Shown one piece after another: positions 15,698 through 63,881 of a DNA stretch of 64,000 bases. Source of the DNA: Lepidurus packardi (lineage: Eukaryota > Arthropoda > Branchiopoda > Notostraca > Triopsidae); NCBI GenBank assembly GCA_023053545.1, contig JAKZAN010000004.1:3968001-4032000 (forward strand). The letters run 5' to 3'. The position numbers and the translations under genes were made by a program. The notes beneath the pieces were generated by a model, which saw only the letters and a list, made by a program, of their open reading frames with translations, was not told where the DNA came from and made no database searches. Position 1 is the stretch's first letter. Each line of letters starts with the position of its first letter.

Positions 15698-15708
15698 TAT
15701 CTTTTAAG
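15698..15708 (+). other. probable 3' splice acceptor of the first coding exon
   Basis: TATCTTTTAAG, preceded by a T-rich tract, ends in AG at 15708 immediately before the GC-rich coding exon. The first ATG of the open frame (15689) sits inside this pyrimidine tract, with an in-frame TAA just upstream at 15686. It is therefore more likely intronic than the true start. The preceding non-coding exon was not identified. In vertebrate FAT1 the first exon is also non-coding, which fits. Confidence 0.5.
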
Positions 15709-15787
15709 GTTCCGCGCCGAACTTCGCAAATCATGGATTAAAAAGTTTTGCCGGTGGGGAAAAAGAAAAATAGCGAGCCGGGAGGAA

Positions 15788-18700: not shown

Positions 18701-19313
18701 GATGGCCCCTCTCCGACTTCCGTAACCCCGAATTCGGCAGCCATATCCCGAGTTATTTTGTCCTCTAGGGCTCTGGTGCGCATCAAGATCCTCGACGTGA
18801 ACGACGTACCGCCCAGGTTCGCCAAAAGCCTCCAAACGGTGAAGATCCCTGAGGACGTACCGGAAGGCACGGTCGTGGCGGTGGTGAGTGCCACAGACCC
18901 TGATTTGGGCCCCGGAGGCGATATCCGATACTCGCTTGCAGGCGTTTACGCGTCCGAGTCGGTGGATCGTTTCGCGATCGACAAGCTCACCGGGACAGTG
19001 CGAGTAAGTCGCGCCTTGGACTTTGAAGAACGACAAGTGTACAATCTGACGGTACGAGCGAGAGACCGGGGCAACCCGGCCTTGAGTAGCGAGGCCTATT
19101 TGGTAGTGGAAGTGCTCGACGTCAACGAGAACCTCTATGCCCCGCGTTTCCCTGATTTGGTCACGATTGCGAGCGTTGCTGAAAACGCACCCATTGGTAC
19201 GTCCGTTACCAAGATTGTCGCCACGGATTCCGATGGACCTGGCGATGACTCCCGGATCACCTACTTCATACGCGGTGGAGATGGCTTGGGACTCTTTGCC
19301 ATCGACCACGAAG
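15788..19313 (+). CDS. fat-like (kug/FAT1-3): Fat-like exon 1 (first coding exon): signal peptide and cadherin repeats 1-9, start of 10
   Basis: Start chosen at ATG 15788 (G at -3 and +4). ATG 15824 is an equally good alternative, and the frame is open back to 15689. Signal anchor WIWLLSILTWTNLALVSA precedes NKAGHLYAF, with likely cleavage after SA. Repeat ends, numbered from 15788: repeat 1 near residue 187 (DMNDLNP), 2 near 296 (VNLHDPE, not a Ca linker), 3 near 403 (DMNDHAP), 4 near 510 (DCNDNDP), 5 near 616 (DINDNRP), 6 near 715. A Cys-containing linker follows at 716-780. Repeat 7 ends near 891 (DVNDNVP), 8 near 1007 (DVNDVPP), 9 near 1119 (DVNENLYAP). Repeat 10 continues into exon 2. 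Donor GTAAGA at 19314 cuts a Gly codon in phase 1. The exon is clearly more GC-rich than its flanks. Confidence 0.93.
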
Positions 19314-22300
19314 GTAAGAACTTTGTCTTTTTTTTGGCTCTATTGGGCCAAGGCTATCGCATACCGTAGCTTATTGATGTGAAACAGTCATAGATGGCGC
19401 TGACGATTTTCGAAAAACCTTTCGTACTTAAGTTGCATGTTACTAATTTATTATTTTGGGGAAAAGGTGGATTGGTTGTGCACTAGATGTTGGTGTGCTC
19501 AAGGTTACTGTGAAAGAATTTTTTTCGTGAAGTTTGCTGGTTTTGACGAAAAGTTGTTCCGAAATTCCCCGTGCTAATCACCCGTACCAAGCTAAGGTAT
19601 ACGGGAGCCCTTATTTTTTATTTATTTTTTTAAGAAGCATCAACGTTCCTTCAAAAGGCGAGAAAAGTCTATGTCTATATTTTCACGCAATAGAAAAGCT
19701 TGGGGTAGATTTAAAAGAAAGTGGGAAAAGGTACTAGTTGAAGGAAGATTTAAAAAAAAAAAGTTTAAGGGGCGTGGGTGTGGTCATTCGGGACTGCGAC
19801 CAAAATCGACGAGAAAGAGTTATTTCTGGGAGGACATAGAAACGTGTTAGTGTGCTAGTGGGCTAAATTCCGTGTTTTCGCAACTCAACACGCAATTCAA
19901 CTCTTTACCTGTCTTAGAAATTAACAAAATTAAGGATTTTCATGGGAAAAACGAAAATCGATTGGAATGGTGTTGAAAAGAAAAGGATTGTAAATTTTTA
20001 AGTACAGTCGTTTATTTACCTTCAATTTTTACCTCATTTACATAATTTTGGCGTGTAAATGTCACATGGGTTTCATTTTCGCCATTGCAAGAGAAACAAC
20101 GGGGGTTAGCCCGGTTTACAACGTCTCTGGTGTTCCATAACACGGTTCTAAAAATGAATAACGGAATGGAGTATCGCTGTAAGGAGCAAAAAGCTGCATG
20201 AGCCTCAACCTCAATTATTTGCATACATTAGTTTTAAGGAGTTTTAACCATCGCTATACACGTGTCAAGATTTGGGCTCCTTTTCCACCCTTTTGCAGGT
20301 TTTCCATTGAAGATTGATTGATTTTCCAAGAGATTTTGACACAAACTAGCCAAGTTTTCTGCCCTATTTCTTCCATTCTGTCAAATGTTTGGCACGGATT
20401 TCTTAATACGTCAGATATCTCGTAAAATATGCGTTTCCTTCACTTTAAAGATGTGCTTATGGCAGTTTGGTGAAAAAGGTACACTTTTCTGCATGCTGGC
20501 GACAAGAAAAGCTCCACATTTGATCCAGGTCAAACGCTGGATCTGATAGACTTTAACCTATCTGGAGGTGAAATCGGAGGGTCAAACCCATCAGCCAACT
20601 TTTCTCAAGCCTGAATTGTGTTACTTTTTTTGTCTGTTGACCCGATTAGTTCGACATGTTGATGTGGCTATCAATCAGAACCATCTTTGTATATTTTTCG
20701 TTGCTTTCTGAAGCGCCAAGTAGCTATTAGACTCCTCCGCTAGTCACGCGTGATGACGTCACGGATGGCCAAGCCAGGCGAGGATCTGTGTTTAGTGTCT
20801 CTCTCTCTCTCTCTTTATCTCAGGGCGAAAGTTGAAAGGAAAAAAAAGAGAACAATTTTCCCCTGCCCCGCCACCAAAACAAGGTGGTAATTTTTCATAT
20901 TCGCGACGTTTAAGGGCGATTCCCTGAACACAAAAGGGAGAACAAATTGTCCGTCTCGTCGAGACCAGATAGCCAACTGACTGAAATATGATGGATCCCA
21001 TAAGGAACTATAATAGTCCGTGGCCCGTTGTGCCGTTTGTGTTTCCATTCTTTACTTTCTTGCTTTCTATCTCGTCTTGTCTTTTTGCTCACTTGCTCTC
21101 CCCTTGCTCTCTTGTTGGGGATGCTGCAAATGGTCAAAAGTTTTGTCTTGGCACATAACATATCACAGCCTGGGCCATCCTACTTTATGGTGACATCCTA
21201 CCAACTTGGCACCACATGCAGGCCCCGGGGCTCTTTTATGTTCTCTTACATATTGCGCTGATAAGTCTCTGAAAGTTGTAAAGTCTTGCTGGGTGCAAGC
21301 TTTTTCTCAAATGAGCTGATAAGCTGTGTATTTTAAGTGCTGAGCATGAAAAAAGGTCTTACCTTCGGTTTTGGTCTCCCTCTTCTTGTGCGTGAAAAAA
21401 GTGCGTGATGCTTTCCTTTTTTTGTAAAATGCTGTTTTGAAAAGTAGCTGCACATCGAAACAGCTGCAATGGTCATTTGTCTCATTCTGGGGACTTTCGC
21501 GCTACGCTGAGGTTGACTAATTGCGCCAAAAGCGTAAGAAGGGGCTCTCTCCATATGTGCAAGTTATTAGTCAATACCTCGTTAGTATGGAAGTGTAAAA
21601 TGGCCTGGGAGGTAACCAAGTAGATGCTGACTTGTGACTTTGACATGTGCCCAAAGGCCTGATGTTGTTATTTTAATGCACACGCGGGGAATAAGTTGCG
21701 GATGCGCTAATTTGGCTAGGGTGAAAAGGGGTAAATGTTGTGTTAACCTCATCCTGTCCCCCCGTCCGTGTGGAGTTTGCACTTTGTAGACTGCTTTATT
21801 TATAGTTTTTGCCAAGTCGGTGTTTTGTTATTGAAGCAAGCAGAGCAAGACAGGAGAAGAGGGCGTTTTGGCGGTATGTTAATGGGGCCTGGCACTTCTA
21901 ATTAACCCCTGGGGGTGACCCCAAGTGTTACTTGTATCTGAGTGGGTTTTCGCTTTTCGGTGGTAAAGACGAAGGTGACAAAACCAACAAACAAAAACTG
22001 TCAAGTGAAGTTTTCGAGGGGGTTGTCAAGAGCTTTAGAGGAGGTTATATAGTGCCAGACGAGATAAATGATATTAAGGATTGTTTATGCTGCAAGCGTT
22101 TCATGGTTTCGGAGACACTCAACTTAAAAAAAAAAAAAAAAAATGAGACCCAATTTAGCGAATTGTGGAAGGAGGAGAGCGAGCATACGCTGGACAGGTT
22201 TGAGAAATATGGTTTGGCAGAAAAAAACGAATGGGGGGGAATCGTTGAGCTGGATAACATTGGTTGTTGTTTATAGTTGCTGTAAATGCGGGGAAAGGGA

Positions 22301-34300: not shown

Positions 34301-37300
34301 ATTTCGATTTGTTAATGTTTTCTTTTGGAAGGGTAGGAAGGAGGTATGCGTCATTCTCTTAACGAAGTTCATATCAGGATTGGTGAAATTGGGAACAAAA
34401 CCTTGGAAGAAGATGTTACTCACCAAATTTAGAGACTTCATCAAAACTATTTGCATATGCAGATGACTCGTACAGTACAGTACGTTGTGGGCTCTGGGTT
34501 GTGGTGTAAGGGGTTGAGGGTATTTCCCTTTATTCCTGGGTACCAAAGGAAAGCGGGTCTAGGGAGCTCATTAGCAGGCCTGTCCAGGTATAGACACGTG
34601 ATTAGCATAACATGAAGAACACAAGAACCCAGTTATAAAACAAAAAGAAGAAAAGGTTGACTCGCTGGCTTCCTCTGGAGAGGTAAATGCGTCTTGGGAG
34701 GTCGTATTTTCTCTTCTTTTGCCTTTTTTTTTTTTTTTACTTTTTATTTAAAAGAGAAATAAAAAGATAAGGAAATTGGGGCCCTAGGTTTAGGAAGCTC
34801 AGTTGGTGCCAAAACTCCGCCTTCCCAAAGTTGAGTTTCGCCTGTTGCTGGCTTTTGCGTTCACCACACTTTCTCCCTTTAAATCCAATATGGTCATCCA
34901 AGTCAGCAAACGATGTTTAAATCAATGATTATGGCGAAATAAAATATTTTTTTTTTTTTGCTTTGTAAAGGTGAGATTCAAATTTGGGAGCAAGTTTTCC
35001 TTGTGTTGTATATTCCTGCTGCTCTAGATGAAGTGTTCCATTTTTCAGACTAGCCAACGAGATTTTTCCATTTCAATTCCAGATGCTCACGCCCCATACA
35101 GAACATGTATAGCGTGTAAGCAGCTTATGTACTCCCGTCTGGGAGGGGGAAAGAAGGTAAAAGGGAAGACGGAATTGCCAGTTCTGAATATGAAAAGAAA
35201 GCCCAGAAGCCTCTCAAAAACATATTTTTTAGAAAGCATTTTTTTCTATTTCTTTTTTTTTTTTGAGGGAGGAACATTGCGGTGAACTTTTTTTATTCTG
35301 ATTATTCTTCCCCGACCTTACTTAGGAAATGTTGAACTGGGTGTTAGTTCGGTTTGTTGACTGAAGAAATTCACGGAAAAGAAGAAGGAAAGAAAAAGAA
35401 AAGTTTGCGTGTTAGTGTTGCGTATATTGCGAGCTGAAAATGTTTATTGGCCCATTCCCTGTATCGTTAAGAGTGTCGTACGTGAGCTTGGTAACAATGG
35501 CCCTTGGCTTATGGCCTATGCATGACAATTTTTATTAGCTTTTATTTTCCTTTTGTATCTTTATCTTGAGCGGGTCCGTCGCAGGGGCGGGGCCAATGTA
35601 TTAAATAAGTAGAAGAAGAACCTTGGTGAAGTGAGTCTGCGAGGAAGAGAGTTTTCACGGGATTTGATGCTTGGGCCATGTAAGATGTTTTTGATGGTTT
35701 TGCTTTTTAGTATGCATTGTCAGGCAAGAATGATCAATGATTCGCTGGCTAGTTTAGGGGGGGAGGACTGTTCAAAATGGAGAAACAGCTCTTTCCTTCT
35801 TCACCCTCTTTACCACATACTATACTTTACACCATATACCACCAAAGCACACCAGATGATGCGTGGTCTTAAGAGAACGTAAAAGAAATGCAATAAGCGC
35901 CAAGTTATAGAGACAACAAAAATAAAAATAGGGGGCAATGGATTGGCTGTGGAAATTCGTAGGGAACTCGGGGGGAAAGTCGGAAAGGAACGAGACGGAG
36001 ACAATATTATTAGAGAAATGATGGGGCTAGCGAAGCTGTGGCACACTAATGAGAAACTCACCCTTCGGCAGATGAGCTATTTCCGCTAGTTTTTCGATGC
36101 CTATAAGTGTAGAGGCCCTTTTTCTGCGGTTTGGGTTGATGTTTAGTTTACTGGTGGTCTGTACCGTACACAGTTTCGAGGTTTGAAAGTTAATAACCAA
36201 CCTATTCATTCAAAATAGAAGCCAATGAACGTTCCCCATAAAATTAGTGCGTGTAGGCAAAAGTAAGTCCAAGAAGGCCTCAATTTGGTTTGACTTAAAA
36301 GGCGAAATTACCACGTTGTCCTTTTTTGTCTTTTTTGTTTCCCTTCTAAAAAAGCATATGTAATCGATTGTATCAAGTGAATTGTTTTGAATTCTATTGG
36401 TTTATAATTGTTTGGCTTAATAAAAGACTCAAGTCATTAATGTCAATTTTTTTTGGCTTGTCTCTTGTTAGGTGTGATAAGGACACGTGTGGTGCTCGAT
36501 CGCGAAAGCCAGTCGCATTACTGGGTGACAGTCGTCGCCCAGGACCATGGCATCGTCCCACTATCGGCTTCCATTGAGGTAAGTAGTGGTGAAACTCAGC
36601 CTAAAAGCCCCCTAAACCGGAGGGTCCATGTCCATGTCAATTTGCGTAGCGCTGGATTATTCCGTGCGCCAAAGTCTCGAGGGAGACTTGCTAGAACGGA
36701 ATTGGAAAGTTGCTTTGACTGTGTTCGAAGTTCCCACTTCCCTTCCCCTTTATCCTAGACATAAGATAAAAGTAGAAGTCGGTAGTAGTCATCTTAAGAA
36801 AAACGATTTTTTTTGTTCTTTGGACAGGAAACAAAAATTGGTTGTTTTGTTTTATTCATCTTCATCTTTCTTTTTTTCTTTTTTTTTTTTGGGGGGGGGG
36901 GAGGGGACGGGGTTGCGAAAACCACTACATTTTCCAGGTTAGTGGAGAACAATAGAAATTCACTGTTAGCAATGAGAAAGTATTTCTAATGGTTTCCGGA
37001 GCTCCCAAGTCGGGAGCCGAACAGGCGTGCGTGCATTCAAGGGTGAGACGAGACGAGGCGGGAAAACGCGTTACTGATAACCTCTTGCACCCTGAACTCC
37101 TTCCCTCTTTTTGAACTCTACTTTTTTTTTTTTTTTTTTTTTTTTTTAACCCGTCTTGCGTGGGGGCTTGAGAATGAGGTATTTCGTTAGCCTATTAGAG
37201 GCGATGTTTTTTTTTCTTTTTTTTTTGGTCCTGAGTTTGTCTTTCAGGTCAAAGGTTACTGTAGTACGTCTTTTGGGGTAGCTGCACATGCCTGTGTTAC

Positions 37301-40300
37301 TGAAGTTTTCAGCAACTGATCTTGTGATTCTAAACGCCCGGACAAACTTTTCTTTAAAGGTTGTGTTTTCGGAAAGAATCATGTATGCATCAATTTTCAT
37401 TTTTAAAGGGCACAAGCCAACCCTCCTACCCTTAAAAAAATTACAAAATAGAGCAAAAAATCTCGTTTCAAGTGAGATTTTTCTTTCCGTCATACTCTAA
37501 GTAGTAATTGAGGTACTTAAAAAAAAAAAACTTTGAAACAGGATCACGTAGCCTAATGACGTCACAAGCGTCTCGGGAATTTCAAAGCGCGCGAGAGTTT
37601 TGTTTAGAAATGCTTTAAGTTAGAACGTAAACAGTAACCATGATTACCGAAAACCTCGCCGTCGTATTTGTGTGACGTCATCCCAGAATTTGCATGTCAA
37701 TAACTCGTGAACGGCTATTCGAAAAAATTTCAAACAAAATGATGACTTCTAGGATAAGTTCATAAAAAAAAGAAGTACAGTGAAAACCGTTTAACACGAA
37801 GCCGCTATTAGCACGAATTCCTTATAACACGAGAAAATATTTCGGTCCCTTCGATCATGTTAAGCAGTTTTCACTGTACTGTCGTTATGGTGACTGTTGC
37901 CCTTTTCAGAAAGCAGACAACATGTTTAGGGACTCGTCTTTCTATTCAAACTTTGCAAAGGTTTAACATGGCGTACTATAATATCTATTGGGCAACAAAA
38001 ATAAGAGGAAACTTTAGTAAACAAGTAAGTTTTTAAAAGTGCATAATTGTATCAACTTTTTAGTTAGACTACTCGAGCTGCTATACTGTGTAATTCGTAA
38101 GCATGAGAAATGTCATAATTTAATTTCCGGTGAAGTTACACACGAAGGTACACACAATTATTTCTACCCTACAATCTCGCGAGTACGGGTACTGCAAATA
38201 TGCAGTAGATCCAACAAATTATTTCCGAATATTCTAAAACTTTGTATAGTTTTAGTGCTGATTTGTGTTATATATTTACCCACCACTCAGTAGAAATTTC
38301 CCATACGAATACTATAGATTCAAGCTATAAAGAGCCATTTGTCTAACCCAAGTTTTTCACATAAGTAAATGCGTGCACACAGAAACGATTTGCAAGTTTT
38401 CTTTTCAATTTAATCCATGGAGACCATTGAGTTCGTGGTACGGCCTTTGGTTTTCTATGGGAGAAACGGGATTTGTGTACCCGACATGGGAGCTCATTGT
38501 TCAATTCAGAGACACGTTGTTGCCAATTCTGTAAAACGTTGCAAATCCAAACAGAGTTACCGAGAGTATTTCCCTCGTTGCAGGGAAGCTCCGAAGTGAA
38601 CTTGAGTGTTTTGTTTATTCAGAGAACAGCGGGTAGTGTTGGCGTGGATTGTGACGCAGTCAAAGCACCATACGTATAAGTATTGCAAGGTGTATTTCAT
38701 CTGCGAAACTTAACGCACACTTAATGGAACAGAACGAGGTGAAATTACATGTTCTTCTGTCCTCAAGTTTTTTTTCTTTTTGCCTGGAAAGTATCGGGTA
38801 GCCGGGGGAACTGGCATAATATGGTACCACTGAGCAGGTTATAGGGATATTGGTATCTGGCGCCCAGGGCGACATTCCTTTTCAAGGCCCGAGACCCGTT
38901 GCTCTATACGTAGAAACTTTATTATCATTTTTTTTTTCTTGGGTGACGTTAGGTAGGAGTGTCGGTGTTTCTTATCTCTGATGCTGTTATGTTCCGCCGT
39001 ATATGAAAGAAAGTGTATATAGTTCCTATGTAGTGCACTCGGTAATATTTTTCTTTTTTCCTTATCCTAAACACAGCCGGTTCGCTATTGTTGAATCCAG
39101 TCAGTCAATAAAGACAGGGGTGAAAAAGGGAAAGAGAAGGCCGCATTCAGGTTTTATTGAGCACGAAAATAGAGCAGTGCAATCAATATTCAGAACTTAG
39201 AGTGGGTGATGAGATTGTTAAAAAAAAAGGTTAAAAGCGAAAGATTTTCAGCATAAATGGGGGCGCTGAAAAGATCTGTGCAAACGTGCTATGCACACGC
39301 TGGTAATTCGTTTCCACTGTAATTAAAAAAGTTTATTGGAATGCATCCTTACCTGGATATTAGCAACGAGCATGGTTGGCATTCCTGGTATCCTTTGCAC
39401 GTCAATTGAAGAGAGATGGAATGCATTTTGCTAAGCGCCCTTGGGCAAAGGGCAGAACGTGTAGTAATTTGAGGATTTGAAGGGATAGCGAGATTTGGCT
39501 TGGAATTGGAAGTAAATTTGCCCATGACTAACATTTAACCCGTGAGTTTTCCCCAAATCTTCTTGGAAAAAGAGTTTTTAATTCATTAGGCCGAATTGCT
39601 CCATGGCGGAGTTCTGCAATGACGTCCTGATGTCACCTAGTAGGATAAGAGAAAAAAGTCAAAGAAAAAATTGGTAAAAAATCAATCTTAAAAAGCCAGA
39701 GCCATGAAAAGAACAAAGTAAGATTTGGGTGGATTCTTGCATTCTCAAGAACCTCGAAATTTTCGGAAATTGGCATGTAAACTTTCGATCATGACATGAC
39801 ATCATAGACATGTCGTGGTGTGAGTTTACGGCGCTTGTTACCAGAGTACTATTTATTTCATGTGAAGGCTCCCGTATAGCTTAGCTTTTCGTGCCACATA
39901 GCATGGGGAACGGAAAAATACTCGTACGTAAATCCTTCAAATCCTCATTACATCCTTATCCTTCAAATCCTCATTACACGAAATCTTCTAAGAATTTACA
40001 GTACTGTAGTGTACGTAGGATTCATACGGAGGGCATGGCAGTTTTACTTGGTCTGTTTTTGCCTTTATTAATATAAGAAATGCTGGTCACTAGTTTCTCC
40101 TCTACGCTAAAATGCAAAAATCTCGGTTGTTTTTCAGAAAAAAATAAGGAAATTCAGTTCGTAATTATAACACTGTCCGGTTTGCCGTAGTATGTGCAGA
40201 AGCGATATCCGTTCATAAACACCCATGTAAAGCACTGCGCGCCCCTCGCGGTAGCTTGGGTGTAACAAGCTAAGCTTTACGGGAGCTTTAAAGGGCAATG

Positions 40301-43300
40301 GCCACCAAAATACAACTTTGTTTTGTAAAATAGAGCGGAAATTCTAATTTCTGGGTATATGTATATTTGTCTCAGGTGCGAAATAATAAGGAAACTATTT
40401 TTGAAATACAAAATCTGAAATTCAAATCTTGCTTTTTTGCCCTTGGCTCTGCGTGGTCACGTGCTGCTGTGACGTCACGGGCGGTCATAACTCCTAGGCG
40501 TACCACAAGACGTGTGTTGTTATTGTGCAGAACGCGAAAGTTAGCTTGTCTTTTCGTTGAAATGGCAGCATTTGGAGACGGAATTAGTTATTACGAAGGA
40601 ATGGAGGACGAAGGCACGGATTGGGATGCGACATTTTCTTTTCCGACGTCAGTTGCTGAAGTTAGAGCCTACCAATTCGAGCCTTTAGTGCCTGCAGTGT
40701 TGGCAATGGAGCAGCCAATTGACAATAACGTTCAATAAGGAAATAAGTTCAATATAGAAAAGGTTCAATACCAACTGCGGGTTGTGACTCCGATGAAACA
40801 AACGCAGCCTCCGAGACCGACGTACAAGTGCTTGTGGCAACGGTGGGGACAGCATGACTATCACTTTGATGCAGCAACTCTTGTACAATCTAGACAGTGT
40901 ATGAATAAACGTAGTATTGAAAATAATAATGAGTATATTTACTTTATGACGTTCTCTTTTGTCAATAGCGGAGGTTCCACAAGTTGTTCTTGTTGGAGTG
41001 TCGCGTAGCGCAGGCACAGTAGCCGGTCTAGAAAACTTCGTGGGGACAGCGGTTTTCAACAAAACCCTTCCGCGGTCTTTTGACCGAAATCCCATTGCTA
41101 TTTTCTGATCAATGCTACTATCAAACTGATCTTCGGTGAAATGTTCACCACAGAGAGTTACCGAATTAGTTTTGGGGTCGACATAATTCGCCCTAGTCCT
41201 TTGGACTTGCAATATCCATTGCCGTCTTCTCTGTGGATCTTTGGGGAATTTATATATCCCTACCCCCGAACTTGAATTGTTGTTACACCCGTAAGCAACA
41301 CAATAGTTCCCGTAACGTTTCGGTATCTTTGTTGGCAGCTCACTTGCCATTTTACACACTAAAACTATACAAAAGCAACAGGGAATCTAAGCGCACCATG
41401 TGAAAACAATGGCCCGCAAGACCCACCTGTCATGCCGCGGACCGCCTGTGACGTCACGCTTCCAGCGGCGGGAAAAGGCCAAAACTTTGCAAATTAATAT
41501 CTCCGTAACGGCTGGTCAGAAAAATCAGAAACAAAATTCTGTGTTCTTAGAATAATGTGTATTGTATGAATCCATCAAAATTTCAGTATGTGCTTGTGGT
41601 GGCCATTGCCCTTTAAGGCCACGGTGAAGTGCAACCTCTTATGGCGCTATAGCATGGCAAACTTTCAAACATTGTAACGACACGATGAAACATTGTAATT
41701 AAACCAAATTTTTACACAATGCGTGTAAGGTATAAATCTAGGGGGTGAAGGTCGTACTTTATTTTTTTTTTATTCTGTGATTTTTTTAATAAATGTTCAA
41801 AGTTATCAAAATCTTAAATAAATCATATATCAAAATTTTACGACCTTCATCCCCTAGGTTTTATTATTTAAAAAATTTTAAAACTCGAACTTTTCAATTA
41901 TCTCTTTCTGTTTACTTTAAAAACTGCTTATAAGTTTCTGAAGTTCTGATGAAAAATTGTGCTGCCACTCAGAAAATAACGGCCAGTCAGGAAACTGCAT
42001 AGCTTGTGCTGAACTCAAGAATGAGCATGAAAAGGAGAAGAGCGTAAAAGTAAGGGGAAGTAAAGGGCAAGTAACTAATTGGGTTTGCTCGAGCCTAAAG
42101 TAACCCAAGGGCACAAATACCTTGTGGCGTTTTACCCTTTTCTTTTATTCTGAATGATTTTGTCTTGTGGCAACTGACGACTAGGATTTTACGCACTACT
42201 ACAACTCTTACGAACTATTTATAGGCCGAATTAAATTGACTGAAAATTAGTTTTCTTAAATTTCTATTACGGCAACAACAGTTTGTGGGTTTTACGAACC
42301 GTTACGAACTTTTGACAGGCAGTATAATGAAGTAAATATAATTTGCTTCTAAATATTCATACAAGCTCGTACTAAAAACTAAATACAATCAAGAAAACAA
42401 GCAAGTGGTAGCCAGTTGGGTCAAGTAAAGGTGAAAACATGTCCGTCTCAGAATGACTTTTCTCAAACATTTTCCCCCTGTTAGCAAAGAGGGGAAAGAG
42501 GTCAAGAAAGCGAACCAAGTGTGGTCTAGAAAAGGTGAAAAGATTTGCAAATAAATGCAAATGAAAATGCAGGTGAAAATAAATGAGTTGCGGCTCATTG
42601 AAGGAACGCCAACGGTTGCCATGAATTCTTCTAAGTGGTTATGGGCTGCACCAATTTGCATAATTCCCATTGCAATTTTTGTGTTGACGGACAAGGCCTG
42701 AACTTTATCTGACCTCAAGCGTGCAGCATGCGGCGAAATGTTCTTTTGCGTAGAGCTTGTCGCGTTTGGATAAACCGGGTCAGTCGTAATAAAAAGATTA
42801 TCCTGGCATTTCTCACATTTGAAAGAAAAACTGCTCCAAAAACCTTTCTTAACTTCCTTTTGGAAAGGAATGGGTGAGCGACAAATATCGTAGTGTTCAA
42901 AAATCTTATTGTGCCCTGACAAGAAATGGCAAACATTTACTAATCGAAGTCCGTCAACTTCTTTCTTCATTTTTGGTTGCGAATACCAAACAGGTTCAAT
43001 GTTAAGTTCTACAGCATCAATTTCTGCCTGTTCTTTAAGAATGCGTGAAAGTTCGTCATCTTCAAGACAGTTCGTTTCTTTGTCAAGGAGATCTAAACTA
43101 GCAATATGGGAAACAACGGCGCTAGTGCTAGCTATAGGTTCAACGGAAATTGATTCTACACCAGGTGTGTAACTTACAGTATTGGAAGCTTGTAATTGAA
43201 AACTTTCACCTGGAATTAATTTCTCGGGCTCAGCTGGATGATGTTTCGTAATCTTTTCGTTTCGCGCCTTCAAAGCAACCCCCATTAGCAGGTGCTTTTT

Positions 43301-46300
43301 TTTCCTGGATGACACTTTTCTATTACCCATTTTCAGTCAGTAGTACAACGCCAAAAAAGTTTCACACTAACTTACACAACTCACTTTTTTTAACCACTCA
43401 CGAACGCAGTAACGAACTTTTTGGGTTGTATTTTTTTTAATAACGTACAATGCTATAATGTTTTAAACAATTGAAGAAATTGGTAACACTAAAATTAAGA
43501 ACCGTTCATGCTGATCTCTGATTACGGAATGAGTTCTAGTCAAAGTTGCATAACAATATTCCGAAAAGTTAGCGAAATAGTAAAAGTGAATGTCCTTTGA
43601 AATCGCATTTGGGCAAATTACACAAACACTAAAAATTAAAAAGTCATTCAGTTTTGAGAAAGAGTGAATTCCCCTTAGTAGAAAAATTATGCGTTTCCAG
43701 TTATTCCGTTGGGATATAACCAAAGCTTGTTGTTGTAGGGAATTTGAGATCGAAAGTGAAGGTTGTTGCAAAATACTGATCCTCAATAATTGGGAATCTA
43801 TTTTATTGGTCACTTCCTTTGACTGATTCATGTCTAAAAGCTAAAATATTCAGTAACTTATTTTATATTCCAGAGTTTCACGATGTGGCCAAGCAGGAAA
43901 AACTATTGCAAGATGTAATTTAGCGATCAATGACCTATCGGCATCAAGATGATCATCAGCATGCATTACACTTTTCAGCAGTGCCATAGCAGTCAAACGA
44001 AAGCCCCAAAGAGCAAGATCTTCGAAGGCTATTAGTTGACTAGAACTAGAATATAAACAGTGATCGCTAAGACGAGCGCTTGATAAGATGGGTGGTAACC
44101 TTGAGTGTAAAGCACGGTAATGGCAATTTTCTAGGAAAATAGTATGATTTAGTTCGGAATTTCTAAGTACACTTCTAAACTTTGGAAATTGGATTATCCC
44201 TTCCATTTGTATTTTATACATAAAACGACGGTGTCAACCTTGACCATAAAGAATGGTAATGGCAATTTTCTAAGAAAATATAATTGCTTAGTTCGCAATT
44301 TCTAAATACTTACACGTCTAGCGCATGAAAATTGGATTATCAGTAAATTGGTATTTCCCTCCCATTCTCAAGCGAACATAGGGAGGAAGTTCCTTAGCAT
44401 AAGCTGACCTTTTCCCTTTACCCCATACTTTACCCTAATTATTGTGTGCAGACCTCTAGTGCGAGAAATTAGTCATAGGTGTATATTTATTTGTAGCATT
44501 CTCAGGATATAGGGGTCTATGCCAGTGACATCTTTTGACGGAAAAGGGTCAACTACTTCGCCTTCACCGTGGCCTTAAAACAGTAAACAAAGCTCCCAGG
44601 TGCCATCGATACGTTTGTGCCATCATAAATGTGACCCTTACTTTGTGTTTCTCTCTTTAGCAGCTTGCTTCTTTACTATTGCGCAAGATGGAAATAAACA
44701 TTTAAGTCGGAACTAGATTTTCTGCTCTTTTTTTGAAGACAACGTTTATTCGGTGGCTATTACTGCTGCTTCCGTGAAGCAGTGGATTTCTCTTGATTTC
44801 AGTCTATTCTCGTTTAGATGTTGAGCGTTTGTCAAAGGCAATTCTAAAGAAAACTAAACGTGATAGAGTTTCTGTTTACTGCTGGCGCCTTAGGGCGAAA
44901 GATGGTAAACAAAAAGTTGGCAAAGCCCAAATTAGACAGCTTTAAAGTTTGGCCACCTTAGTGGCCCAATAGTTACGAAATGATACTGGAACTTTGTTAG
45001 ACCCTTAGGAACTTTGTTACTGATTGATGTAGTGCAGTTAAAAAGCATCGAACTTTCAAAGTAGGCCAACCTTTTTTTTTTTTTTTGGTATCATGTGCTA
45101 AGCTGTTTGAGAGCAAAAAAAATGGGAATGTGTAAAGAACAGCCATTTTTTGTGAATTTTTAAACCCGTAGAATGGATCCAGCACGAAGAGTGTTGGTTA
45201 CCTTTAACCAGTTGTATAATTTCGCCATCAATTTTAGCGGTCTGGTCCTTGGCTGCGTCTTGCATTACTCCAAGTGCCTTTTGCTTTTTCAATTTGTTTT
45301 TCTATGTGTTTTTAAGGGGAGTCGAACCTATAACCAGTACCGATGAACCTGAAAAGCGCAAGAAGCTGTAAGAACAACAATTTGGGATTTTCCATGAAAA
45401 ATGTCGGAATTATTGTGGTTTGGTTTCGGTCTTTAACTTGTGTTCTTCTTTAGAAAAAAAGGTTGTCAGTATTGCCTCAACACATGTTTCCTGCACTTAA
45501 TTTTTACGTCTTCGACCCCATACACAAGTTCGAGCAAGGAAAAAGAAACTTTGAGCTCAAATTTTGGGGGAAAGCTTCCATTAGTCTGCATGCGGATGCC
45601 GCATAGCTATGCAAAAACGAGCATGCTGGGAACCATAAACTGGCCCTCTCGTACTGTACGTCGGATCACATCCCCCCAGAAAAAAGGGTTCACATCCCCC
45701 ATCTCGTGGGTTGGGAGAATTATATCTTAGCTGGGGCGTTCTATATTCATATTAAGCTGGCACATGCTAGATGACGCAAATGAAATGAATGAATGATAAG
45801 TACTTTCCTCTGCCCCCACAGGTTCTGACGGATTTTTTTTTTCTTTTCTTTTTGAAGACGTCTATAAGTTTGCGAGGAAAGTTTGAAGAAAACAGAGTAT
45901 TTAATAAGACTGTTGTACGTTTTTGTTTTGCAGGTGTTTGTGGCAGTGGAAGACGAGAATGATAATGTACCTCAAACGGAAAAACCGATTTATTGGGCTA
46001 CCGTACCTGAGAATTCGCCACCGAAAACACCCGTTTTGCAGATCCATGCCTTCGATGCTGATATGAATCCGTCACAACGCTTGAATTTTCAATTCAAAGC
46101 AGGCAACCCACAGTCCCTTTTTGATATCGATGCTCAGTCAGGTAAGAAAACGTATTATGCTAAAGGGAAAGTTTGTGTAAAGCGCTGGAAACTGAAGTGG
46201 CTTCTGGCCGGAGTTGGAAGCGTTAACCCGGCTTGACTTGGAAGCTATTGCGGCCACGGAAAAGTAACCGAGCCAACCGAATGCACCCTACCCCGCTTCA

Positions 46301-61300: not shown

Positions 61301-63881
61301 TCGTCAGCGGCAATGATTTAGACGCGTTCTTGATCAACCCCAGTACGGGCGTGATTGTGACAGGCTCCTCATTAGACTACGAACGTAACCGCGCTTACAA
61401 CCTTACCGTTCGGACTACCAATATGGTAACATTAAAAAAAAACAAAAAAAATACACGTTTTGGGTTTTTTACAGAGTGCTTTTTATTTACAATTCCTGTT
61501 TGCTTTTGTTTCAATTAAAAGGCGGGCGCCGGAGCCCAGTGCACTGTCCTTATTCACGTACTTGACGTGAATGATAACGCTCCAGTCTTCACTCAACGGT
61601 TTTATGAAGGCAGCATCCCCGAATCGGCTGCTCTCGGCTCCTTGGTTTTTGTCCCCGAGTCCAACAGTCCTTTAGTCATCCAAGCCATGGATTTCGACTC
61701 TGGCACGAACGCGCTCCTGAGCTATTCTATTGTGGAACCTGCAGCCCAAGCACTTTTTATCATCGATACAAGCACAGGTATTTATATAAGAAAAATCAAC
61801 GAACATTCTTGGCCTAGCATGAAGTGCAACTGTTTTGTAGCATATTTGGCCATGATACCACTGTACATTTTGTCGACCGTTCACGTTTTTTTCTACATTA
61901 TTTACACTTTGCTTTTTTTTACTCGTGTTGCTTATCAAAGGCTTCGAGTGAAACACGAGTTGCAATTTAGTAGGGTTTCAGTTGTCTGTGTCCAAAAAGT
62001 GGTTTAATTGCTTTCGCCTAAGAGAAAGAACGAAAATTGAAAGCCCGGAGTAATTTTTTTTTTCGTTTTTTTAGGGGCAATAAGGAGCATGGCGATACTG
62101 GACCATGAGACGAATCCTGAAGTGGAGTTCCGAGTCCAAGTATGGGATAATGGGCACCCTCGCTTAACTTCGCCGAACTTGGCGCTCGTGCGAATCCGCA
62201 TTACAGACGTGAACGACTTGCCTCCTGCCTTTACGGAAGCTATCTATAACGCTACTGTGCTGCTCCCCACCTACCCTGGAGTGGCTGTGCTCACTTTATC
62301 AGCCTCTGACCCGGATACGGATGCCCATAGCCCGTTGACTTACGGCCTAACTCCTGGGAAAGGAGCCGAGAGCCAATTTGCTGTGAATAAAAACACAGGA
62401 GTGCTCACCATGAGCCAGGCGGAAGGCTTAGCTCCGTATTACCACTTGGAAGTGAGCGTTTCCGACGGGCTATACACGGCCGTGGCTTATGTCAATGTCT
62501 ACGTCGAACAAGTGGAAGCCTCCGGACTGGCTTTTGCCAAGGATTTTTATGTGGGAGCCGTGGCGGAGAATTCTACCCGGGAAAGTACGATTGCCGTGTT
62601 GGATGTGCTCGGTACCGTTCTCAACGAACATGTGACGTTCCGAGTACTCAACCCAGAAGGGCTCTTCAAAGTGGGTCTCACGTCGGGCGTGGTCCAGACG
62701 ACGGGAGCCGTTTTCGATCGCGAATCGCGGGACAAGTACACAGTCATTATAGAGGTGAGTTACCCCCACGATTTTTTAGGGTTCCAGAAACGATGAAAGG
62801 CGGACTGGAGTTCGACTTGAAACGCTAGATAAAATGTCTTGAAGAGATAACCCATATGCTTTAAGGATGTCTGGTGTTATTTTATTTACCTTTTTGCTTT
62901 CGCTTTTTATTGAAACGGGATTAATTAGGTGAATTTTACCTGACAGCTTTACAGAGTTTCAGTAAACTAAATCTTCTTTAGCGTAACGATGACATAATTG
63001 TTTTTTGACAAGACAGAATGAGAGGAATTACTGATGTTTAAATTTTTGGAAATTCAAAAATCAAATTAGTTCAGAAGGAATTTAATTTTAGTGAAATTTA
63101 ATTTTAATGAAAATTAAATAGAAATTTAAAACCAAGTATTCAAAGATGCTGTATTCTGTTAAATTCTAAAAATAAAAAAAAATGGAATTTAACATTTTAT
63201 AAAAAGTCAGGTTTCTGGTAAGGTGTCGATGTTGTGTAAGAAAAAGTCCAGATATTTTATCTTCGTCTTGCCAACATTTAACTGATAATAAGAAGAAATA
63301 GCTGCAAACTTTCTTACACGGCTTGGTATGACGTGGCTTAATTTTGCCAACGCGAAGGCGTTAAAGTCCGCTATTGCCTCAAGAAAACTTGTTTGGAAGG
63401 TTTTTGTGCGGGAAATTAGGAACTTTGAGTGGTCCCTGCCAGGGAACGTGAACGAAAGATAAACAGCTTGCGGAAAAGTTGAAGAACAACTAATTTGCTA
63501 GATTTGTGCTAGATCTTGTTGGTACGTAATGCACTGATTCGATAGTCTTTAGTTGTAACAAATTTCAAACCTTATTACCCTTCCTGAGCGACTGGCTTGT
63601 CCTTCGTTTCAGCTCAGAATTTCACGTCTTTGACGTCTACATGCGTTCATTAAAGTTTGTCTAGAGTGCAGCAAGATGTGACCGTGTATCGCAATTAAAG
63701 CTTATTGTAAACCCCATTGCAGGCTCGCAGTGAACGCGGAGACGGGGAGAAACCCAGGATTGCTCACACGCGTTTGGATGTAACGGTCACTGACGTCAAT
63801 GACAATCGGCCTGTGTTTATTAACTTGCCTTATTATGCTGTCGTCTCCTTGGAAGCCAAACGTGGGGACGTTGTCACCAAG
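15788..63881 (+). CDS. fat-like (kug/FAT1-3): Fat-like protocadherin (FAT1/2/3-kugelei class), N-terminal half, 15 coding exons, incomplete at the right edge
   Basis: Giant single-pass cadherin of the plasma membrane. Family knowledge: it acts in planar polarity of actin, cell migration and tissue architecture. Joined exons give about 2,203 residues without a stop: an arginine-rich N-terminus, a signal peptide (about residues 40-57), then 19 complete extracellular cadherin repeats and the start of the 20th. Ca-binding DxNDN-type linkers close repeats 1, 3, 4, 5, 7, 8, 9, 10, 11, 13, 14, 16, 17 and 19. They are missing or degenerate after 2, 6, 12, 15 and 18, the pattern I recall for FAT1. Assignment to Fat-like rather than Fat/FAT4 rests on the N-terminus (YNASIYENSPAKSYV, FKAEARQVGDFCFL), the Cys-containing linker between repeats 6 and 7, and the giant first coding exon ending in repeat 10. 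Membrane segment, laminin-G/EGF modules and tail lie beyond the window. Intron phases in order: 1,0,1,0,0,0,1,0,2,1,2,0,1,0,0. Confidence 0.93.
15905..15958 (+). other. signal peptide hydrophobic core
   Basis: Residues about 40-57 (numbered from ATG 15788): WIWLLSILTWTNLALVSA, preceded by a basic stretch (RRRLGRRSS) and followed by NKAGHLYAF, where the first cadherin repeat begins. Small residues S-A at the end suit signal peptidase. The n-region is unusually long if the first ATG is used and shorter with ATG 15824. Confidence 0.75.
19589..19609. mobile_element. terminal fragment of the GCTCCCG-ended MITE family
   Basis: AAGCTAAGGTATACGGGAGCC matches the terminal repeat of the 39866-40287 element (its left end, read in reverse complement) at all but one of 21 positions. 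No partner end was found nearby, so this is a solo end or a decayed copy. It shows that the family is dispersed. Confidence 0.5.
20799..20813. repeat. (TC)n microsatellite
   Basis: Run of about seven CT units. Comparable GA-rich short tandem runs occur at about 9271-9290 and 31499-31513. Confidence 0.8.
27722..27877. mobile_element. possible short TA-flanked element with pogo/Tc1-like ends
   Basis: Left end reads TA-CAGTCGAACTCGCTTAAGTG, a form common for pogo/Tigger-type ends. The right end reads ATTGACTG-TA. Only about 5 to 7 terminal bases are complementary, so the pairing is weak. An inner GTGCAC...GTGCAC motif lies between them. Assignment is tentative. Confidence 0.3.
28448..28462. repeat. 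poly-C homopolymer (15 C)
   Basis: Uninterrupted C run in intron 1. Confidence 0.85.
30763..31120. mobile_element. MITE related to the THAP/TTAA element (deletion derivative)
   Basis: The right end reads GGATGGCTATTGTTCT then TTAA (31117-31120), matching GGTGGCCATTGCCCT-TTAA of the THAP element. The probable left end is TTAA-AGG at 30763. Inside, GATCACGTGAC...GCGTCAC (about 30856-30880) and TGTGACGTCAT with a following ATTTGCATGT (30992-31020) line up with the 37403-37906 copy, and the distance between the two inner motifs (about 120 bp) is the same. No coding sequence remains. The left end is the weakest part. Confidence 0.55.
36472..36578 (+). CDS. fat-like (kug/FAT1-3): Fat-like exon 2 (rest of cadherin repeat 10, middle part)
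   Basis: Acceptor TTGTTAG at 36471 and donor GTAAGT at 36579. Phase 1 in, phase 0 out. Encodes about 36 residues, VIRTRVVLDRESQSHYWV followed by TVVAQDHGIVPLSASIE, the LDRE strand and the beta-strand before the linker of repeat 10. The join to exon 1 restores FAIDHE-G-VIRT, the canonical spacing of a cadherin repeat. Confidence 0.9.
37122..37147. repeat. poly-T homopolymer (26 T)
   Basis: Longest single-base run in the window. It could mark the end of a retroposed sequence in reverse orientation, but no flanking duplication was found. Confidence 0.8.
37403..37906. mobile_element. decayed internal-deletion copy of the THAP/TTAA element, interrupted by a pogo-like MITE
   Basis: Left end TTAA-AGGGCACAAGCCAACC (37403 on) and right end GGTGACTGTTGCCCT (ending at 37903) match the ends of the 40292-41612 element. 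Further matches: TTACAAAATAGAGC against TTGTAAAATAGAGC, GGATCACGTAGCC-TAATGACGTCAC against TGGTCACGTGCTG-CTGTGACGTCAC, and TGTGACGTCA followed by a TTTGCA, CGTGAACGGCT and TTCAAACAAAAT series. All protein-coding sequence is missing. The right target TTAA is degraded to TTTC. The 99-bp MITE at 37778 splits it. Confidence 0.65.
37778..37876. mobile_element. pogo/Tigger-like MITE, 99 bp, TA target duplication
   Basis: Begins CAGTGAAAACCGTTTAAC and ends GTTAAGCAGTTTTCACTG. The arms are complementary with two mismatches in 18, and a TA lies directly outside each end (37776-37777 and 37877-37878). The CAGTG-AA ends and TA duplication are typical of pogo/Tigger and other Tc1-mariner-type elements. 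Far too short to code. Confidence 0.8.
39866..40287. mobile_element. 422-bp MITE with GCTCCCG-type terminal inverted repeats
   Basis: Left end AGGCTCCCGTATAGCTTAGC (39866 on) is complementary, with two mismatches, to AAGCTAAGCTTTACGGGAGCT ending at 40287. The right end abuts TTAA at 40288-40291, which is also the left TTAA of the THAP element. The left flank reads GTGA, possibly a decayed TTAA. No coding capacity. An internal 20-bp direct repeat lies at 39933-39952 and 39959-39978. A solo end of the family occurs at 19589. Confidence 0.65.
39933..39978. repeat. short direct repeat, period 26 bp
   Basis: TCCTTCAAATCCTCATTACA occurs identically at 39933-39952 and 39959-39978 with a 6-base spacer. 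Confidence 0.85.
40470..40477. promoter_or_regulatory. CRE/ATF palindrome TGACGTCA, left promoter of the THAP element
   Basis: Perfect 8-mer 85 bp upstream of the + ORF start, preceded by GGTCACGTGCTGC. The same arrangement is kept in the 37403-37906 copy (TGACGTCA at 37557-37564). CREB/ATF factors bind this palindrome; use here is inferred. Confidence 0.5.
40562..40738 (+). CDS. small ORF of the THAP transposon, 58 residues, function unknown
   Basis: ATG follows the T-rich stretch CTTGTCTTTTCGTTGAA. The product is acidic (MEDEGTDWDATFSF) and has an AYQFEP motif near its middle. I do not recognise a domain. Short F/YQFEP-type motifs occur near the N-terminus of some transposon-associated proteins, but that is only a resemblance. 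The ORF ends 10 bp before the convergent THAP gene ends. It could be the first exon of a longer gene lost by internal deletion, since a 58-residue product would be unusually short. A larger frame extends upstream to 40367 but lacks a convincing start. Confidence 0.4.
   Translation: MAAFGDGISYYEGMEDEGTDWDATFSFPTSVAEVRAYQFEPLVPAVLAMEQPIDNNVQ
40749..41350 (-). CDS. THAP-type zinc-finger DNA-binding protein of a transposon, probably two exons
   Basis: Starting at MASELPTK (minus ATG at 41350; an in-frame ATG lies 9 bp upstream), the C2CH zinc ligands are visible: CVAYGC and later CGEH, with the invariant W in RRRQWILQV and the closing AVPTKF box of the THAP fold (about residues 12-105). THAP domains bind specific DNA, in transposons the element ends. 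The frame continues to RERHK, where minus-strand GTAAAT (40942-40937) can act as donor. The acceptor CAAGAG just before 40877 gives a 42-residue second exon beginning LLHQSDSHAVPTV and ending at TGA 40751-40749. Unspliced, the frame stays open to 40685 but reads as unrelated hydrophobic sequence. The splicing model is inference. Confidence 0.75.
41449..41456. promoter_or_regulatory. CRE/ATF palindrome TGACGTCA, right promoter of the THAP element
   Basis: Perfect 8-mer 99 bp upstream of the minus-strand THAP ATG, mirroring the left one. The counterpart in the 37403-37906 copy is at 37673-37680 and in the 30763-31120 copy at 30994-31001. Confidence 0.5.
41738..41857. repeat. hairpin-forming inverted repeat near the element end
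   Basis: CTAGGGGGTGAAGGTCGTA (41738-41756) is complementary to TACGACCTTCATCCCCTAG (41839-41857) with one mismatch. The 82-bp AT-rich loop is mostly T/A. It lies about 120 bp inside the left end of the 3-kb element and could be a subterminal repeat or a small MITE inserted into it. Confidence 0.75.
42580..43330 (-). pseudogene. Mutator-like transposase domain protein, N-terminal fragment
   Basis: From minus ATG 43330 the product begins with a basic segment (MGNRKVSSRKKKHLLMG), then a variable acidic region. The family-like part follows, about residues 125-248: DGLRLVNVCHFLSGHNKIFEH-type start, paired cysteines in FKCEKCQDN, then LSVNTKIAMGIMQIGAAHNH and LEEFMATVGVPSMSRNSF. This order (zinc-knuckle-like CxxC, VN-motif, G-rich IG.GH stretch, P.MS.. 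F) matches the Mutator-like transposase family as I know it. After NSF the frame runs into unrelated hydrophobic sequence until 42389, with no splice donor seen. The catalytic part is absent, probably by internal deletion. The protein is inferred non-functional. Confidence 0.6.
44091..44341. repeat. direct repeat of about 110 bp inside the 3-kb element
   Basis: Units 44091-44198 and 44231-44341 share GGTAATGGCAATTTTCTA, then GAAAATA, TTAGTTCG, AATTTCTAA and AAATTGGATTATC. Divergence is moderate. Subterminal direct repeats of this kind can be transposase-binding sites; that role is inferred. Confidence 0.7.
45934..46141 (+). CDS. fat-like (kug/FAT1-3): Fat-like exon 3 (end of repeat 10, most of repeat 11)
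   Basis: Acceptor TTTTGCAG at 45933, donor GTAAGA at 46142. Phase 0 in, phase 1 out. Encodes VFVAVEDENDNVPQ, the Ca-binding linker closing repeat 10, then WATVPENSPPKTPVLQIHAF and ends in FDIDAQSG of repeat 11. PENSP and DADMN give the usual Ca ligands. Confidence 0.92.
47280..47293. repeat. poly-C homopolymer (14 C)
   Basis: Uninterrupted C run in intron 3. Confidence 0.85.
47580..47940. repeat. cryptic TAC/GTA-rich repeat block
   Basis: Dense degenerate recurrence of GTACAT, ATGTAT, ATACTT and TACGTA words (for example TTGTACATCTTGTACATACTT and ATTTGTATGTATTGTATATG), with locally palindromic ATTTAATACATACAAAGTACAT. It looks like an eroded short tandem repeat. No fixed period can be set by eye. 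Confidence 0.55.
50572..50594. repeat. poly-T homopolymer (23 T)
   Basis: Uninterrupted T run in intron 3. Confidence 0.85.
51460..51521 (+). CDS. fat-like (kug/FAT1-3): Fat-like exon 4 (62 bp, part of repeat 11), followed by a GC donor
   Basis: Acceptor CATTGTAG at 51459. Phase 1 in, phase 0 out. Encodes GLITTTGRRLDRETQPEHIL-E, the conserved LDRE core of repeat 11. The only donor that keeps the frame to exon 5 (VTVSDSGEP) is GCAAGT at 51522, a non-canonical GC-AG intron with otherwise perfect consensus (GAG|GCAAGT). The nearest GT (51526) would add 4 nt and shift the frame. Confidence 0.9.
51522..51527 (+). other. non-canonical GC 5' splice site of intron 4
   Basis: GAG|GCAAGT. The +3 to +6 bases AAGT match the consensus, as expected for GC-AG introns, which need stronger flanking matches. 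The intron ends TTCCTTGCAG at 53920. Confidence 0.8.
53295..53309. repeat. poly-G homopolymer (15 G)
   Basis: Uninterrupted G run in intron 4. Confidence 0.85.
53921..54109 (+). CDS. fat-like (kug/FAT1-3): Fat-like exon 5 (end of repeat 11, start of repeat 12)
   Basis: Acceptor CCTTGCAG at 53920, donor GTAAAC at 54110; phase 0 at both ends. Encodes VTVSDSGEPALSSSTRVVVE, the linker DVNDNAPEF, then ERFYKVQVPATNLETESSAL and ends MEDTELAITQ. The insertion-like polar stretch before ITQ corresponds to a loop that is also long in other Fat-like proteins. Confidence 0.92.
54110..57069 (+). other. Fat-like intron 5 (3.0 kb)
   Basis: GTAAAC donor, TACATTTTAG acceptor, phase 0. AT-rich through 55030-55700. 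No gene recognised. A 178-codon minus ORF (56806-57342) overlaps exon 6 on the opposite strand and is taken as a shadow. Confidence 0.85.
57070..57225 (+). CDS. fat-like (kug/FAT1-3): Fat-like exon 6 (most of repeat 12)
   Basis: Acceptor ATTTTAG at 57069, donor GTGAGT at 57226; phase 0 at both ends. Encodes VVAFDRDDGANAELEYSLME through FKIHPRTGVIYCTRSLAPGQ to EFPFN. DRDDG-N-E supplies the Ca-binding DxD and the IHPRTG is the conserved repeat turn. Confidence 0.92.
57226..57705 (+). other. Fat-like intron 6 (480 bp)
   Basis: GTGAGT donor, GTGAGCAG acceptor, phase 0. Contains a C15 run (57261-57275) followed by AAT microsatellite units (about 57284-57308). Nothing else seen. Confidence 0.85.
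57261..57308. repeat. poly-C run plus (AAT)n microsatellite
   Basis: Fifteen C at 57261-57275, then after CTCAAGAAAA a run of AATAATAATAATAA and AATAAATA units. Confidence 0.85.
57706..57928 (+). CDS. fat-like (kug/FAT1-3): Fat-like exon 7 (end of repeat 12, first half of repeat 13)
   Basis: Acceptor TGAGCAG at 57705, donor GTAAGT at 57929. Phase 0 in, phase 1 out. Encodes VRATDNGTPSKSGTARVSLS, then ALPNIVVSSHEPV in place of a DxNDN linker, then METDPIGHSVAFIIAQDEDG and YYAIVG. The missing Ca linker after repeat 12 parallels FAT1, where this junction is also atypical. Confidence 0.92.
57929..58510 (+). other. Fat-like intron 7 (582 bp)
   Basis: GTAAGT donor, TTGTCACTAG acceptor, phase 1. 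AT-rich, no feature seen. Confidence 0.85.
58511..58650 (+). CDS. fat-like (kug/FAT1-3): Fat-like exon 8 (second half of repeat 13)
   Basis: Acceptor GTCACTAG at 58510, donor GTGAGT at 58651. Phase 1 in, phase 0 out. Encodes GNEGDKFGININTGKVYLAQ, then MVDWETQAVYHLNISITDGI and FTIFTQ. The VDWET in place of LDRE matches the Fat-like family at this repeat. Confidence 0.92.
58651..59514 (+). other. Fat-like intron 8 (864 bp)
   Basis: GTGAGT donor, TTGCTTCACAG acceptor, phase 0. No feature seen. Confidence 0.85.
59515..59756 (+). CDS. fat-like (kug/FAT1-3): Fat-like exon 9 (linker 13/14 and most of repeat 14)
   Basis: Acceptor CTTCACAG at 59514, donor GTAACT at 59757. Phase 0 in, phase 2 out. 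Encodes LEVSVMDVNDHTPVFSRSLY, then NVSENVEVGTEILQLAATDE and DQDKRVFYAIHGAASPVSL through AEKLDR. The KRVFYAIHGA-SPVSLRKF segment is a recognisable Fat-like signature. Confidence 0.93.
59942..60186 (+). CDS. fat-like (kug/FAT1-3): Fat-like exon 10 (end of repeat 14, start of repeat 15)
   Basis: Acceptor TTGTTACAG at 59941, donor GTAACA at 60187. Phase 2 in, phase 1 out. Encodes EMMSEHVLTVLVKDQGTPSN, the linker QDNNDHAPEF, then RVFETAAVGSLVANMMAWDR and DRGSNARITYSIGSG. The preceding intron 9 (59757-59941) is only 185 bp. Confidence 0.93.
60298..60484 (+). CDS. fat-like (kug/FAT1-3): Fat-like exon 11 (rest of repeat 15)
   Basis: Acceptor GATGGCAG at 60297, donor GTACAG at 60485. Phase 1 in, phase 2 out. 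Encodes NVGGMFTIDPDSGMVRLGQE, then LDLTQASEYMLVINAADGGN and closes with VVMAENDPPR, a degenerate linker. Intron 10 before it is 111 bp. Confidence 0.92.
60485..61196 (+). other. Fat-like intron 11 (712 bp)
   Basis: GTACAG donor, GCTTTTAG acceptor, phase 2. No feature seen. Minus ORFs here are shadows. Confidence 0.85.
61197..61425 (+). CDS. fat-like (kug/FAT1-3): Fat-like exon 12 (most of repeat 16)
   Basis: Acceptor TGCTTTTAG at 61196, donor GTAACA at 61426. Phase 2 in, phase 0 out. Encodes FSTKEYGADVFEDVALGTFV, then VEGRSASSLAYEIVSGNDLD and FLINPSTGVIVTGSSLDYER to TNM. The first part of the repeat is short and lacks the usual DxD, as in FAT1 at the corresponding repeat. Confidence 0.92.
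61522..61777 (+). CDS. fat-like (kug/FAT1-3): Fat-like exon 13 (end of repeat 16, first half of repeat 17)
   Basis: Acceptor TTAAAAG at 61521 (weak pyrimidine tract), donor GTATTT at 61778. Phase 0 in, phase 1 out. Encodes AGAGAQCTVLIHV, the linker DVNDNAPVF, then FYEGSIPESAALGSLVFVPE and SPLVIQAMDFDSGTNALLSY to IDTSTG. Intron 12 before it is 96 bp, the shortest here, and intron 13 after it is 297 bp. Confidence 0.92.
62075..62754 (+). CDS. fat-like (kug/FAT1-3): Fat-like exon 14 (end of repeat 17, repeat 18, most of repeat 19)
   Basis: Acceptor GTTTTTTTAG at 62074, donor GTGAGT at 62755. Phase 1 in, phase 0 out. 680 bp, encoding about 227 residues: AIRSMAILDHETNPEVEFRV, the linker DVNDLPPAFTEA, ATVLLPTYPGVAVLTLSASD, VNVYVEQVEASGLAFAKDFY in place of a DxNDN linker, VAENSTRESTIAVLDVLG and AVFDRESRDKYTVIIE. 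The LLPTYPGV and VNEHVTFRVLNPEG-like stretches are strong Fat-like matches. Confidence 0.94.
62755..63722 (+). other. Fat-like intron 14 (968 bp)
   Basis: GTGAGT donor, CATTGCAG acceptor, phase 0. AT-rich around 63040-63200, no feature seen. Confidence 0.85.
63723..63881 (+). CDS. fat-like (kug/FAT1-3): Fat-like exon 15 (end of repeat 19, start of repeat 20), last exon in the window
   Basis: Acceptor CCATTGCAG at 63722, donor GTAAAA at 63882; phase 0 at both ends. Encodes ARSERGDGEKPRIAHTRLDV, the linker DVNDNRPVFINLPYYAVV and SLEAKRGDVVTK. FVNLPYYAVV is nearly the same in FAT1. The gene continues beyond 64000. Confidence 0.93.

Follow-up and report, generated by a model that had tools for sequence, protein, structure and literature searches.

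Two putative Kolobok-like elements joined at a single TTAA in an intron of a predicted cadherin gene of Lepidurus packardi

Introduction

How do transposable elements with different ends come to lie end to end with nothing but a TTAA between them? The question is raised by a window of 64,000 bases from Lepidurus packardi, the whole stretch of DNA analysed here, in which a first-pass annotation had read a MITE, an element with a THAP domain and a 3-kb element with a 'Mutator-like' transposase as a chain of three TTAA transposons. The chain had been attributed to repeated insertion into a TTAA duplicated by an earlier element, with a co-mobile unit as the alternative. The borders of the elements, their encoded domains and their relatives in the window strongly favor successive insertion of two Kolobok-like families at the same TTAA as the best explanation.

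Results and Discussion

The chain of elements (Table 1) is located within an intron extending from about 36579 to 45933, the splice-like edges of which were read by eye. A Pfam search of the open frame 15689-19369 returned cadherin repeats (PF00028, E 1.4e-158) and a FAT4-type match (PF25374, E 1.5e-22), and cadherin repeats were found again at 62041-62796 (PF00028, E 9.3e-17). Extra cadherin-like frames were recognized by eye elsewhere in the window. Judged by these domains and the splice-like edges, the host gene of the chain is an animal cadherin gene. The interval 15689-62796 possibly represents an intron-rich, FAT-like gene with many cadherin repeats.

Table 1. Positions in the window of the chained elements, their TTAA borders, their coding remnants and related copies
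Feature	Position	Strand	Evidence or remark
Second copy of the MITE family, flanks CCAA and CTTA	~19352..19609	-	repeat/TIR search
Diverged solo copy related to the THAP element	37403..37908		3' alignment, ends read
MITE, no coding match, TIR GGCTCCCGTATAGCTTAGCTT	39867..40287		inverted repeat 21/23
TTAA, target duplication left of the THAP element, abuts the MITE end	40288..40291		direct reading, TTAA-pair scan
THAP element (1321 bp), Kolobok-like and apparently non-autonomous, terminal sequences 5'-AGGGCAATGG...CCATTGCCCT-3'	40292..41612		TIR search, TTAA-pair scan
58-codon open frame, candidate KolX N-terminus	40562..40735	+	faces the THAP gene
N-terminal THAP domain, rest of protein missing	40999..41350	-	PF05485, E 6.6e-16
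TTAA, single, common to the THAP element and the 3-kb element	41613..41616		direct reading, TTAA-pair scan
3-kb element (2958 bp), Kolobok-like and apparently non-autonomous, terminal sequences 5'-GGCCACGGTGAAG...CTTCACCGTGGCC-3'	41617..44574		TIR search, TTAA-pair scan
PF20700 'Mutator-like transposase', N-terminal part	42620..43330	-	E 7.2e-11
TTAA, target duplication right of the 3-kb element	44575..44578		direct reading, TTAA-pair scan

Direct reading and repeat search agree that the three TTAAs of Table 1 lie exactly at element boundaries, as first annotated. With the TTAA included, the two ends of the THAP element match as an inverted repeat at 22 of 23 positions, and those of the 3-kb element at 17 of 17. 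When the ends of the two elements were compared, their terminal inverted repeats proved to be different, in line with the earlier assignment of separate repeats to each. Every pair of TTAAs in the window spaced 80-5000 bases apart was scanned, mismatches being counted over 14 bases. At most three mismatches were found in 14 pairs, and at most one only in the pairs that bound the THAP element and the 3-kb element. In 30 first-order Markov shuffles, a mean of 2.0 pairs reached the former threshold and none the latter.

The THAP element and the 3-kb element are probably of Kolobok type, to judge from their targets, ends and encoded domains. Kolobok elements duplicate a TTAA target and have 5'-RR/YY-3' ends, in contrast to piggyBac (PMC9587614), their transposases usually carry DDE, THAP and H2CH motifs, and the ends of Xenopus T2 read AGGRR (PMC6004289). 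In the THAP element, the TTAA duplication, AGGG...CCCT ends of the form 5'-RR...YY-3' and a THAP domain are all present; the term THAP is absent from PMC9587614. The PF05485 match spans 87 of the 87 profile positions, the protein also matches the solved structure of THAP2 (2d8r, E 4.4e-07), and the C2CH residues and AVPTKF box were recognized by eye after the description in PMC6004289. Searched in six frames against Pfam at E ≤ 1, a threshold that could miss a diverged catalytic remnant in this or the 3-kb element, the THAP element yielded THAP as its sole match, and a DDE domain with the C/DxxH signature was not found. Since a catalytic domain was not found, the element is filed as Kolobok-like rather than as a proven member, and loss of DDE is as expected for a non-autonomous derivative. 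Moreover, trimmed Kolobok coding sequences of Xenopus measure 2202 and 2421 bp (PMC6004289), and an element of 1321 bp is thus too short for them.

The small open frame facing the THAP gene had no Pfam match and no solved-structure match up to E 10. It contains a YQFEP motif that presumably compares with KolX, and it is possibly the start of this second Kolobok protein, a reading we treat as a lead only.

The 3-kb element ends in GG...CC at the TTAAs at 41613 and 44575, which is also the 5'-RR/YY-3' form. Its PF20700 match covers profile positions 1-107 of 357 only, with one such stretch in the three minus frames and zero in the three plus frames. The six-frame Pfam search returned neither the catalytic part nor an exonuclease match, and a single other, weak and unrelated match (E 0.11). 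Because the searches recovered a catalytic domain from neither, both the THAP element and the 3-kb element look non-autonomous.

The description 'Mutator-like' in the first-pass annotation survives as the Pfam label of PF20700, while target, ends and THAP point to Kolobok, for the 3-kb element by extension. MuDR/Mutator elements duplicate 8-11 bp of target (PMC5907723). The outer flanks of the 3-kb element have, by eye, only TTAA in common and no 8-11 bp duplication; MuDR/Mutator was thus rejected for it, and the label should not be read as MuDR. The piggyBac superfamily was also rejected, both coding elements having RR/YY ends (contrast stated in PMC9587614). PF20700 may itself be a Kolobok transposase, and the 3-kb element would then derive from a Kolobok lineage with a PF20700-type transposase, perhaps KolobokE; PF20700 was not mentioned among the listed matches of the literature search for this link.

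Two further repeats were observed within the 3-kb element. An inverted repeat CTAGGGGGTGAAGGTCGTA...TACGACCTTCATCCCCTAG at 41738-41857 is perhaps a nested TA-targeting MITE, and a pair of direct repeats, each about 110 bp long and 77% alike, lies at 44091-44341, close to the right end.

Of the chain originally proposed, the junction between the THAP element and the 3-kb element stands. The link to the MITE is weaker: its right end does abut a TTAA, but its left flank is TGAA (39863-39866). The terminal repeats of the MITE are real, and if the degenerate TGAA is its left target, the element starts one base later than the annotated 39866-40287 (422 bp) and measures 421 bp. Translated in six frames, it produced a single Pfam match (E 0.41), which was taken as chance. 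The far end of the second copy of the family matches at 17 of 22 positions, a fit equalled in 0 of 2000 shuffles. Because of the TGAA, and because the second copy lacks TTAA on both sides, TTAA is only a possible target of the MITE family.

It may therefore be asked whether the MITE is a TTAA element at all, or whether the THAP element landed in a TTAA at or overlapping its end, leaving the THAP/3-kb junction as the one true shared target. The TGAA and the CCAA and CTTA flanks of the second copy favor this alternative, which we regard as possible but somewhat doubtful: TGAA is one change away from TTAA, by eye, an AA directly precedes the terminal RR at three of the family's four known ends (the fourth has one extra G), and with 450 TTAAs in 64,000 bases, a TTAA would fall exactly at the MITE edge by chance at about 1 in 142 per site. 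The right TTAA of the MITE probably, although not certainly, served as an insertion target too.

Successive insertion would account for the layout as follows. Insertion by Kolobok transposases takes place at TTAA and duplicates it, so that each resident element offers two intact TTAA borders, and a later insertion into one of these produces element-TTAA-element without a spacer. Two different, apparently non-autonomous Kolobok-like families would have inserted successively at one TTAA in the cadherin intron. Each would have depended in trans on the transposase of its own full-length relatives, the 1.3-kb element on that of a THAP-containing Kolobok and the 3-kb element on a PF20700 transposase. 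The order of insertion, like the transposase supply and the superfamily, is something we infer; the MITE is perhaps the oldest, as its ends and flank are more diverged. The first-pass explanation by insertion into a duplicated TTAA is thus best supported at the THAP/3-kb junction and plausible rather than proven at the MITE.

To what extent such stacking is to be expected was evaluated by simulation. Of the 53 TTAAs in the interval 36700-45930, 31 lie outside the chain, and in 60,000 trials, elements were placed at random on these 31 host sites, newly created border TTAAs being counted as well. Under this model, which takes no account of TTAAs within elements or of target preference, at least two of four elements were stacked in 32% of trials and at least three in 2.0%; with three elements (the MITE left out), the corresponding values were 17.8% and 0.6%. 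Such chains are expected in a genome with many such elements and are unremarkable genome-wide. As random choice among TTAAs already suffices for stacking, no special mechanism is needed.

A special mechanism can nevertheless be formulated, in which the 5'-RR/YY-3' ends turn the borders of resident elements into YY-TTAA-RR sites that the transposase favors, so that stacking exceeds chance. All three chain TTAAs have this form, compared with 62 of the 450 in the window, but the excess is partly built in, since the element ends themselves supply RR and YY, and the three sites are few, are not independent and are accommodated by random choice. Such a preference therefore seems unlikely to us. Slightly more unlikely still is the broader proposition that Kolobok elements prefer TTAAs bordering resident Koloboks and in this way build reversible, spacer-free chains of unrelated families. 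Stacking above chance genome-wide, if true, would point to a preferred target; no such preference was found described for this superfamily among the matches listed in the literature search.

Whether the THAP family depends on its neighbor for movement is addressed by a solo relative located 2.4 kb upstream of the THAP element, in the same intron, to which no 3-kb element is joined. This copy has AGGGCA ends and a TTAA on its left (37403-37406). Its right terminal repeat ends at about 37903 and is followed by TTTC, so the right target is degenerate. The 3' subterminal region resembles that of the THAP element, with an alignment score of 68, where 500 shuffles reached at most 42; the 5' alignment scores 47, the shuffle control covering the 3' alignment only. 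Nested in the copy is a small TA-bounded MITE (TACAGTGAAAAC...GTTTTCACTGTA, 37776-37878, 103 bp including the TAs), which we take to be pogo-like. The solo relative, although a single case, is direct evidence for movement of the THAP family on its own.

This bears on the co-mobile unit put forward in the first-pass annotation, here taken to mean either joint movement of both elements as a block or mobilization of the THAP element by the 3-kb transposase as well. Their adjacency, the common TTAA and a hexamer GGCCAC near the ends of both would agree with such a history, and PMC10664404 proposes joint movement of neighboring MITEs for pithovirus M1/M2 and reports it for rice. We nonetheless consider it highly improbable, given that the terminal repeats differ, the THAP element itself encodes a THAP-type N-terminus, its relative stands alone and neither element contains a detected catalytic domain. 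A single composite element was set aside, the ends being different and a solo THAP-element relative existing. The locus shows that a strict choice of target is enough to place unrelated elements directly next to each other, a layout that could be mistaken for one composite element.

Copies elsewhere were searched in two sequence collections. The TIR patterns of the THAP element, the 3-kb element and the MITE had 0 matches in viral_contigs. Pattern searches with the 3-kb-element protein gave no match in viral_contigs and 34 in genome_contigs, none confirmed, and the THAP protein gave five matches in viral_contigs, again none confirmed. A 17-base THAP TIR pattern matched 103 stretches in genome_contigs. 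When the chain and its flanks were compared by BLAST with all 103, none of the best 20 rows exceeded 26 bases, and the stretches were therefore taken as chance.

Comparison with known systems

The THAP element resembles Kolobok transposons and the Xenopus T2-MITEs and XKol elements (PMC6004289) in its TTAA target, AGGG... ends and THAP domain, and differs from them in that no catalytic domain was detected and KolX is only a lead. Likewise, the 3-kb element shares the TTAA target and GG...CC ends with a putative Kolobok lineage carrying a PF20700-type transposase, but has 107 of 357 PF20700 positions and no exonuclease match in six frames.

As for the arrangement itself, no chain of elements sharing a TTAA was found described among the matches listed in the literature search; several related arrangements are on record. 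Tandem KolobokP copies have a long terminal repeat in common (PMC9587614). In pithoviruses, the MITE-like repeats M1 and M2 abut, as do the elements of the chain, and have one target duplication in common, there a dinucleotide; their arrays recur as (M1-M2)n-M1, mostly through joint movement in the opinion of the authors (PMC10664404). The present chain differs in being linked by TTAA and in occupying a single locus. Arrays of unrelated elements are also formed by rice MITEs, 11% of which occur in multimers (Jiang and Wessler 2001, as cited in PMC10664404), and by the SaTar MULEs, which are unrelated to each other, never nested and linked by microsatellites (PMC5907723) rather than by a bare TTAA. 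The layout described here is thus real but ordinary, a further example of a known arrangement in which the link is a bare TTAA.
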